A program made the position numbers and the translations under genes. The notes beneath the pieces are model-generated. The model saw nothing but the letters and a program-made list of their open reading frames with translations. It did not search any database and was not told the DNA's origin. This document shows, one piece after another, positions 36,543 to 38,662 of a DNA stretch of 64,000 nucleotides (position 1 is its first letter; each line of letters begins with the position of its first letter). The DNA comes from Candidatus Dormiibacterota bacterium (lineage in GTDB: Bacteria > Acidobacteriota > Polarisedimenticolia > Gp22-AA2). The stretch spans positions 1 through 64,000 of the forward strand of contig DASQAT010000056.1 of the NCBI GenBank assembly GCA_035635555.1. Reading direction: 5' to 3'.

Positions 36543-36587
36543 GGCCGGCGGTTGACCGTTCGCGGATTTCACCAGACCTTTCAGGAC

Positions 36588-37289
36588 ATGATCGGCGCTG
36601 TGGACCATCCGCACCACAGGACCATCGTCTTCTCCGAGAACGTCGCGCGGTACCTCCTGCGTGGTGAGAGCTATCTTTCCCGGTCCGAGTTCGTGCTCGT
36701 GGCGGGCGCGAGCGGCCGGGAGGTCCTCGATCTCGCGGCTCGTGAGCGGGCGGTGGCAGCGGTGCTCGGCTTCGATCTCGGAGACCTCCGGGCCGACGAA
36801 ATCTGCCGCGGCCTGAAGCGATCCCTCGATCATCCCCCCGTGGTCCTGGTCGTCGGACCGGGGCGGCCGCCGGACGCAGCCCGGCGCTGCCGGGAGGCCG
36901 GCTGCGACGACTATCTCGTCTCCCCGGTCGATCCTCCCGCCCTCCTGATCCGTCTGGCGTCCCACCTCGGCATCCACTTCCGGATACATCCCCGCCGGCG
37001 GGTGGTCGTGCCGGTATCCTACGGCCGGGTGATCCGCGAGTTCCTCGGCTACACGCGCGACCTGGGCGAGGGCGGAGCGCTCATCGAGTCGGTGCTCAAG
37101 CCCGGCCCCGGCCGGCGTCTCGTGCTGCGTCTCTATCCCGAGGGTCAGGACGCGCTGGTGCTGCCCGCGGTCCTCCTGAGGGCGCGGCAGTCGATGGACC
37201 ACGGGCAGAACCTCCTGGGGGTGCAGTTCCCGGATCCGCCGGCGACGGAGAGGGGGAGGCTCAAGGACCTGATCGACCGGCGCATCTGA
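36588..37289 (+). CDS. Degenerate receiver-like protein with C-terminal PilZ domain
   Basis: A 233-residue protein. The N-terminal half has receiver-like alternation (TIVFSENVARYLLRG, VAAVLGFDLGDLRADEICRGLK, PVVLVVGPGRPPDAARRCREAGCDDYLVSPVDPPALLIRLASHLG), with GFDLG at the acceptor strand and a Ser-Pro where the conserved Lys normally lies. The C-terminus is a PilZ barrel (RIHPRRRVVVPVSYG, YTRDLGEGGALIESV, LLGVQFPDPPATERG), with an RRR basic box and DLGEGG for the second motif, so c-di-GMP binding is plausible. ATG 36588 is chosen; a TTG at 36552 would add 12 residues. It lies 31 bp upstream of the candidate selenoprotein. Confidence 0.75.
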   Translation: MIGAVDHPHHRTIVFSENVARYLLRGESYLSRSEFVLVAGASGREVLDLAARERAVAAVLGFDLGDLRADEICRGLKRSLDHPPVVLVVGPGRPPDAARRCREAGCDDYLVSPVDPPALLIRLASHLGIHFRIHPRRRVVVPVSYGRVIREFLGYTRDLGEGGALIESVLKPGPGRRLVLRLYPEGQDALVLPAVLLRARQSMDHGQNLLGVQFPDPPATERGRLKDLIDRRI

Positions 37290-37320
37290 TACTCTGGAGG
37301 GCGTCAGAGATGGAGGAACC

Positions 37321-38241
37321 GTGGGTCGCCTGAGCCGCCTGCGCCCCGACCAGGTCGGAGAGGACATCCGGTCGCTCTTCGAGACCTTCCTCAGGGAGCG
37401 CGGCAACATCCCGAACATGTTCCGGACGGCGGCGCACCGTCCCGAGATCCTGAGCACCATGCTAGCCCACTTCCGGGCCGTCATGGGACCGGGCACCGTC
37501 CCCGTGGCGCTGAAGGAGATGCTGGCGGTCCGCGTGTCGCGGATCAACTCCTGCGACTACTGACTCGCGTCCCACACTGCTTTGGCAAAGCAGTTCGGAG
37601 TCAGCGACGCCGCTCTCGATGGATTGAAGGACCCCGGCCGCCATCCTTTTCCCCCCGAACAGAAGGCGGCCTTCCTGTTCGCGGACGCCATGACCGACGG
37701 CCCCGGGCACGTGCCCGACCCGGTCTACCAGGAAGTGCGCCGTCATTTCAGCGAGGCGCAGGTCGTCGAGATCGCCTGCGTCGTCGGATTGTTCAACTAC
37801 TTCAACAGGTTCAACAACGCCCTGCACGTCGAGGTTACGCTCACCGACCCGGACGTGATCGTGCGCCTCGTCGAGGAGGCGGGGGCCGTGGGGATCGCCG
37901 TCGCGGATTTCTGCGACCGCGTGGCGGACATCCTGCACCAGGGGCGCCGCTACATCCGGGTCGGCATCTACCAGCGTGACAAGGACCGTCTCGTCCTGCG
38001 CGCCTGGCGCGGGGCCTCATCCCCGCCCACTTCGCCAGGACTGGGCGAGGGGGACGCCGGCGTGACCGGCCAGAGCGGCGTGACCCGCGTGGCCGGTCCT
38101 CTTCTCGTCGTTCCGGTGCTGGTGGACGGCGCGGTCGTGGGAGTCATCGAGGTGGAAGGCGATCGCCCCGCCGCCATCGACGAAGAAGACCGCCCTCTCG
38201 TGGAGCGTGTCGCGACGGTCCTCGCCGCGCGGCTGACCTGA
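37321..38241 (+). CDS. Candidate selenoprotein: AhpD-like (CMD) domain fused to GAF domain, in-frame TGA read as Sec
   Basis: Reading through one TGA (37561-37563) gives a 306-residue protein. It starts at GTG 37321, after GGAGG. Residues 20-170 are an AhpD/carboxymuconolactone decarboxylase fold. The proton-relay motif E66-x11-C78-D-Y-U81-x3-H85 is intact except that the second redox Cys codon is TGA. The frame after TGA continues for 226 codons with normal AhpD helices, then a GAF domain (about 190-306: RRYIRVGIYQRDKDRLVLRAWRG, GPLLVVPVLVDGAVVGVIEVEG). CxxU AhpD-like selenoproteins are a known family. A SECIS-like hairpin follows the TGA at once. Alternatives are a TGC-to-TGA nonsense mutation or sequencing error. 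No sel genes lie in this window. The role would be thiol peroxidase or redox sensing. Confidence 0.75.
37561..37603 (+). promoter_or_regulatory. Bacterial SECIS-like recoding hairpin
   Basis: Starting at the TGA itself, TGACTC (37561-37566) pairs perfectly with GAGTCA (37598-37603). An inner 7-bp stem, CTGCTTT (37577-37583) with AAAGCAG (37587-37593), is capped by a GGC loop. The apical GG lies 21 nt after the TGA, inside the 16-37 nt window described for bacterial SECIS elements, and has the required G at the loop start. The hairpin is embedded in the coding sequence just after the CxxU motif. Confidence 0.7.
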
Positions 38242-38255
38242 GCGCTCGGGAGGAC

Positions 38256-38340
38256 TGGTGCGAAAGGAGGGATTCGAACCCTCATGGGTTGCCCCACCGG
38301 ATCCTAAGTCCGGCGCGTCTGCCAGTTCCGCCACTTTCGC
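38256..38340 (-). tRNA. tRNA-Leu (anticodon UAG)
   Basis: An 85-nt class II tRNA read leftwards from 38340. The acceptor stem is GCGAAAG/CTTTCGC, the anticodon stem CCGGA/TCCGG encloses loop CTTAGGA (anticodon TAG), the variable arm GGG-CAA-CCC is long as expected for tRNA-Leu, and the T-arm has GGTTCGAATCC. The discriminator A and the CCA end are encoded. It starts 14 bp beyond the stop of the candidate selenoprotein gene, on the opposite strand. Confidence 0.95.
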
Positions 38341-38407: not shown

Positions 38408-38662
38408 CTAGCAGGCAGCCGTGACGCAGTGCGTGGGTGCGCCAGGGTTGATGCACTTGAAGTCCTTGCGGTGGCCACAGCTGGCGGGGCCATCACAACC
38501 CTTGTTCTCGCACGTTGGGCTCGCGTAAGCTGCGCCCACTGTCACGTTCGAGAGAGACGACACGTAGGGAGAGCCGGTCGGGGCCGATGGAACAAGCGGA
38601 ATCACGGTCAGAATTGCGGCGACGACCAGCAACCGGAGGGCGATCTTGACGACATTGCTCAT
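38408..38662 (-). CDS. Small exported six-cysteine peptide (copy 1)
   Basis: An 84-residue protein with a good AAGGAGG ribosome-binding site. Residues 5-25 are a hydrophobic signal or anchor, and a short linker contains SPYVSSLSNVTVGAAYA. The C-terminal 34 residues carry six cysteines spaced C-x4-C-x5-C-x7-C-x8-C-x4-C, the last Cys being the C-terminal residue. The same plan occurs in the 84-residue protein at 51402-51656, which shares the PY.S.LS...YA linker, so these are paralogues of a family I do not recognise. The cysteines could form three disulfides after export, bind a metal cluster, or be modified. No processing enzyme is adjacent. Confidence 0.75.
   Translation of the reverse strand: MSNVVKIALRLLVVAAILTVIPLVPSAPTGSPYVSSLSNVTVGAAYASPTCENKGCDGPASCGHRKDFKCINPGAPTHCVTAAC

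Follow-up and report, generated by a model that had tools for sequence, protein, structure and literature searches.

The question raised by this locus is how the cell reads an in-frame TGA that falls at the active site of an AhpD-like gene in the window (the whole 64,000-nucleotide stretch of DNA analysed). The alternation of TGA with Cys codons in homologues, a covarying hairpin, the sel genes of the source genome and purifying selection all agree with the earlier note's reading of this codon as selenocysteine (Sec). We place at roughly 0.96 the probability that the gene encodes a 306-residue AhpD-like selenoprotein with a GAF tail, in which Sec81 would be inserted via SelB and the hairpin. 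The predicted gene and its elements are as follows.

37321-38241, + strand: AhpD-like selenoprotein gene (predicted), GTG start, TGA stop, 306 residues including Sec81
37312-37316, + strand: GGAGG, a likely ribosome-binding site 4 nt ahead of the GTG, read from the sequence
37321-37836, + strand: AhpD/CMD domain (peroxidase-related, TIGR01926-like), residues 1 to ~172
37552-37554, + strand: codon of the first redox Cys, C78
37561-37563, + strand: in-frame TGA, predicted Sec81
37576-37594, + strand: SECIS-like hairpin, ACTGCTTT-GGC-AAAGCAGT, with the GGC apical loop at 37584-37586
37852-38238, + strand: GAF domain resembling free methionine-R-sulfoxide reductase (fRMsr), residues ~178-306

Codon 81 of the frame opened by the GTG at 37321 is TGA, and reading through it yields the motif E66-x11-C78-x2-U81-x3-H85, which places the TGA at the second redox Cys of AhpD and E66, C78 and H85 where the earlier note had put them. 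A further 225 sense codons lead to a TGA stop at 38239-38241. Mechanical ORF calling splits the gene, as had been foreseen for standard gene callers, into two false pieces at 37321-37563 (80 aa) and 37582-38241 (219 aa, TTG start). Because the window is 68% GC and holds 18-22 equally long open segments per frame, the length of the frame past the TGA is unremarkable and counts as weak evidence, and the case therefore rests on comparison. When the window is compared with three relatives, dN/dS after the TGA is ~0.12-0.34 in the CMD part, close to its value ahead of the TGA, and ~0.36-0.53 in the C-terminal GAF part. The earlier note had named decay of the downstream frame in relatives as evidence against its reading; none is seen, and purifying selection is maintained. 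Its claim that the frame continues past the TGA is borne out by homology and selection, whereas the "normal AhpD helices" that it described there do not extend beyond ~residue 171, where the sequence is GAF.

The N-terminal part carries the E-x11-C-x2-C/U-x3-H motif in a CMD helical core. It scores 50.3 bits with the CMD profile PF02627, above the cut-off of 23, and 80.2 bits (E 1.5e-22) with TIGR01926, for which the curated cut-off is 81.8. The protein is not a member of NF053654 (66.8 bits against an equivalog cut-off of 310, residues 2-170 aligned) or of NF041238 (40.7 bits against an equivalog cut-off of 175, residues 66-169 aligned). Sequence comparison with the PDB leads to peroxidase-related AhpD proteins, and the sequence and fold matches include 2prr, 2pfx, 2oyo and 6k40. 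A structure model built from 28 sequences has a mean pLDDT of 89 and superimposes on 2prr, 2pfx, 6k40 and 3c1l with TM scores of ~0.82-0.85 by target length. The relay of PA0269 consists of Glu, Cys, Tyr, Cys and His (PMC3141380); E66, C78, Y80, U81 and H85 of the window protein are the same five residues, with selenium predicted at the second Cys.

Residues ~178-306 form a GAF domain and are not AhpD. The AhpD-GAF fusion was met in no genomes other than those of the family to which the window belongs (G000, G003, G004 and G005), and a search of the literature collection used found no description of AhpD fused to GAF. The nearest PDB sequences of the GAF domain in the relative L024, a better preserved copy, include fRMsr (4mmn, 1.4e-17; 3mmh, 1e-16), Foldseek matches likewise include 3mmh, 3ksf and 4mmn, and a Cys of L024 aligns with the Cys of Thermoplasma type II fRMsr (CFAATRSELVVP against CFPSTQSEIVVP). 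The L024 likenesses would suit a C-terminal part that is an active fRMsr reduced by the AhpD-Sec domain, a reading that we judge very unlikely. Among four aligned copies, those of the window, L023 and L105 are without the Cys-bearing fRMsr stretch, the Cys being present only in L024, and the window copy has no Cys in the C-x5-SE-(I/L)-VVP region by which an active fRMsr would be recognised. The GAF part also evolves faster than the AhpD part, as its higher dN/dS indicates, and model confidence drops below 50 at residues 238-250. Because the fRMsr Cys segment has been lost from the window copy, its GAF domain is probably regulatory or decaying rather than an active sulfoxide reductase. It is doubtful, too, that the AhpD selenoenzyme and the fRMsr-type GAF make up a two-domain redox relay or sensor whose Sec site and GAF pocket communicate, the selenium site reducing the methionine sulfoxide reductase in relatives that have the GAF Cys, such as L024.

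Homologues were drawn from named species genomes and from a set of 100 genomes related to the source. Among named matches the nearest, "gp22" Acidobacteria MAGs at 66% identity, point to an acidobacterial source. The alignment covers 110 loci in Acidobacteriota, Firmicutes, Chloroflexota, Planctomycetota and Gemmatimonadota; 57 of them have TGA as codon 81 and all the others, 53 in number, have TGC/TGT. Two pairs of loci, L104/L024 and L106/L023, are apparently the same genes obtained through two collections, leaving 55 distinct TGA sequences. TGA copies occur in Acidobacteriota, Firmicutes (Anaerosolibacter, Geosporobacter, Thermotalea and Alkaliphilus), Chloroflexota, Planctomycetota and Gemmatimonadota, and codon 78 is TGC/TGT, that is Cys, in every one of the 57. 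Selenocysteine is classically recognised by such alternation of Cys and TGA at a redox residue. Plasmid records gave only distant matches, at 33-36% identity among the matches listed.

The GGC loop of the hairpin starts 20 nt past the TGA and closes an 8-bp stem. With a folding energy of -15.4 kcal/mol for the 45-mer, the hairpin lies within all published bSECIS limits, namely a loop of 3-9 nt with G at loop position 1 or 2, an upper stem of 4-16 bp, a spacing of 16-37 nt and an MFE <= -7.5 kcal/mol (PMC13188914). The folding energy of a 71-nt hairpin segment is no more stable than that of dinucleotide shuffles (z 0.01), so the case for the hairpin rests on covariation. On average 7.1 of the 8 pairs form in TGA copies versus 2.1 of 8 in comparably close Cys copies (at least 44% identity). 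The synonymous-codon null for the TGA copies has a mean of 3.9 +/- 0.13, with none of 500 re-draws reaching the observed value, whereas pairing in the Cys copies equals their own null. Within 29 TGA sequences, standard pairs fill 99.5% of the cells and 37 cells are changed on both sides; the covariation score is 0.527 versus 0.242 for shuffled data (0/500), and slid registers score lower. The covarying hairpin is carried by TGA copies and by almost no Cys copies. Three of the 57 TGA copies (L041, L048 and L050) are without a hairpin in the window register; these are excluded from the 29-sequence covariation count and included in the comparison of pairing with the synonymous null.

Some Cys homologues depart from the common pattern. 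About two dozen from Acidobacteriaceae (L054, L057, L063, L070, L072-L074 and L078-L081 among them) read T-x-x-C, having lost the first redox Cys and kept the second, and are without a SECIS. The homologue of Terriglobia JOPF158 (L029:3001-3513) has TGT at the Sec position and retains 8/8 SECIS pairs and the GGC loop in a selB-bearing genome, and is apparently the product of a recent change from Sec to Cys in a single step.

The earlier note had pointed to selA, selB, selC and selD as the genes to look for and to absence of selB or selC as fatal to its reading, just as it had left to homologues the choice between Cys and U in the column of codon 81. The column divides between TGA and Cys as described above, and all four genes are found in the source genome.

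Contig C55, 48446-50332: selB, 333.7 bits
Contig C28, 28379-28472: tRNA-Sec with a TCA anticodon (UCA in RNA), 75.9 bits
Contig C46, 119634-120566 (L016 of G000): selD, 365.8 bits, with its own TGA in SGGUAAK
Contig C31: selA, 542 bits

In the search of relatives, own genome included, 14 genomes have a TGA copy, and selB is above the cut-off in 13 of them. The exception is the draft assembly G014, which yielded neither selB over the cut-off nor a strong tRNA-Sec although its TGA copy (L116, 33% identity) has the hairpin; either the assembly is incomplete or the selenoprotein gene is an orphan. Among 20 genomes behind named loci, selB is present in 7/7 with TGA copies, and 4/13 with Cys copies have none above the cut-off. 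Searches of the source genome gave no match over the cut-off for the NF041238 selenoprotein model and nothing informative for dsbE. The selD gene of the source genome is a selenoprotein gene too, with Sec in SGGUAAK. Directly adjoining the tRNA-Sec gene is the gene for a 387-aa protein resembling a tyrosine recombinase (L008:1642-2805, - strand); recombinase genes beside tRNA genes are common at tRNA integration sites.

Instead of encoding Sec at residue 81, the UGA might be reassigned to Trp, be read as Cys by a suppressor tRNA or terminate an 80-aa product. We allow these readings only a slim chance: homologues have Cys and never Trp at position 81, a full Sec pathway with a UCA tRNA is present, and conservation extends past the UGA to H85 of the active site and to the SECIS hairpin. 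Code reassignment was rejected because TGA is an ordinary stop here, ending both the selenoprotein gene and the upstream gene (37287-37289). A sequencing error hiding a true TGC, or a pseudogene of a broken AhpD, would fit one nonsense codon at a Cys position in a draft assembly of 59 contigs but is excluded in practice, because independent assemblies show the same TGA at 57 loci, isolates such as Geosporobacter, Anaerosolibacter and Alkaliphilus among them, purifying selection acts on the frame past the TGA, and the hairpin covaries.

On the selenoprotein reading, what follows on the insertion of Sec, on substrate and reductant and on what the GAF domain does is inference. SelB with Sec-tRNA (UCA anticodon) would recognise the hairpin just past the UGA and deliver selenocysteine to position 81. 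In the helical core of the AhpD/CMD domain, C78-x-x-U81 would then form a redox pair, served by E66, Y80 and H85 as a proton relay like that of AhpD. The AhpD domain is most likely a peroxidase or a thiol-disulfide-type reductase, whose selenolate and C78 would form and resolve a selenenylsulfide. For the GAF domain of the window protein, ligand binding or a part in dimerisation is the most likely role, and it would not be catalytic.

The gene lies among the following features.

36555-37289, + strand: REC-like and PilZ protein, upstream, 31 nt before the selenoprotein start
38256-38340, - strand: tRNA-Leu, downstream of the selenoprotein gene
38408-38662, - strand: small protein of 84 aa, with a hydrophobic stretch at its N-terminus and many Cys in its tail, adjoining tRNA-Leu

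The REC-PilZ gene is possibly co-transcribed with the selenoprotein gene; it is also found upstream in L023/L106 and L105 and was not found in L024. The genes clpX, clpP and tig (trigger factor) lie on the opposite strand. The neighbouring genes point to no functional partner, and none of those adjacent is an obvious reductant.

AhpD-like CxxU proteins are, as had been supposed, an established bacterial selenoprotein family, published since 2005: 27 sequences were described from the Sargasso Sea (PMC1088965), the 299 in GOS rank among the commonest selenoproteins there (PMC2398784), and a 2026 review lists the family with TIGR01926 in its Table 1 (PMC13188914). For Acidobacteria, four selenoproteins of three families were known in 2006 (PMC1794560). 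The kind of selenoprotein encoded here is already known, and the GAF fusion is its only unusual point, a lineage-specific addition open to ordinary assays. Relatives in Acidobacteriota, like the window gene, are likely annotated as two false genes cut at the active site. With 57 Sec copies and 53 Cys copies, a covarying SECIS that is unusually clean, and L029 as a Cys copy still bearing it, the homologues form a good natural data set for the exchange of Sec and Cys.

Compared with known systems, the window protein shares only its superfamily with the NF053654 "YciW-related (seleno)protein" and the NF041238 "alkylhydroperoxidase-related (seleno)protein", scoring far below both cut-offs. Relative to the Cys-type peroxidase-related AhpD structures (2prr, 2pfx, 2oyo, 6k40 and PA0269 2o4d), the helical core, the Cys pair and the relay His are shared, whereas those structures have CxxC rather than CxxU and are without a GAF domain. 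The fRMsr proteins (3mmh, 4mmn, YebR 1vhm and YKL069W) are the closest sequence relatives of the GAF domain and among its closest folds, but the window GAF is without their cysteine-bearing stretch. The AhpD-like CxxU selenoproteins (TIGR01926/COG2128/CMD PF02627) have the same domain, the same CxxU motif with Sec in second place and a SECIS directly downstream; the window protein, whose TIGR01926 score falls just under the cut-off, adds to these a C-terminal GAF domain.
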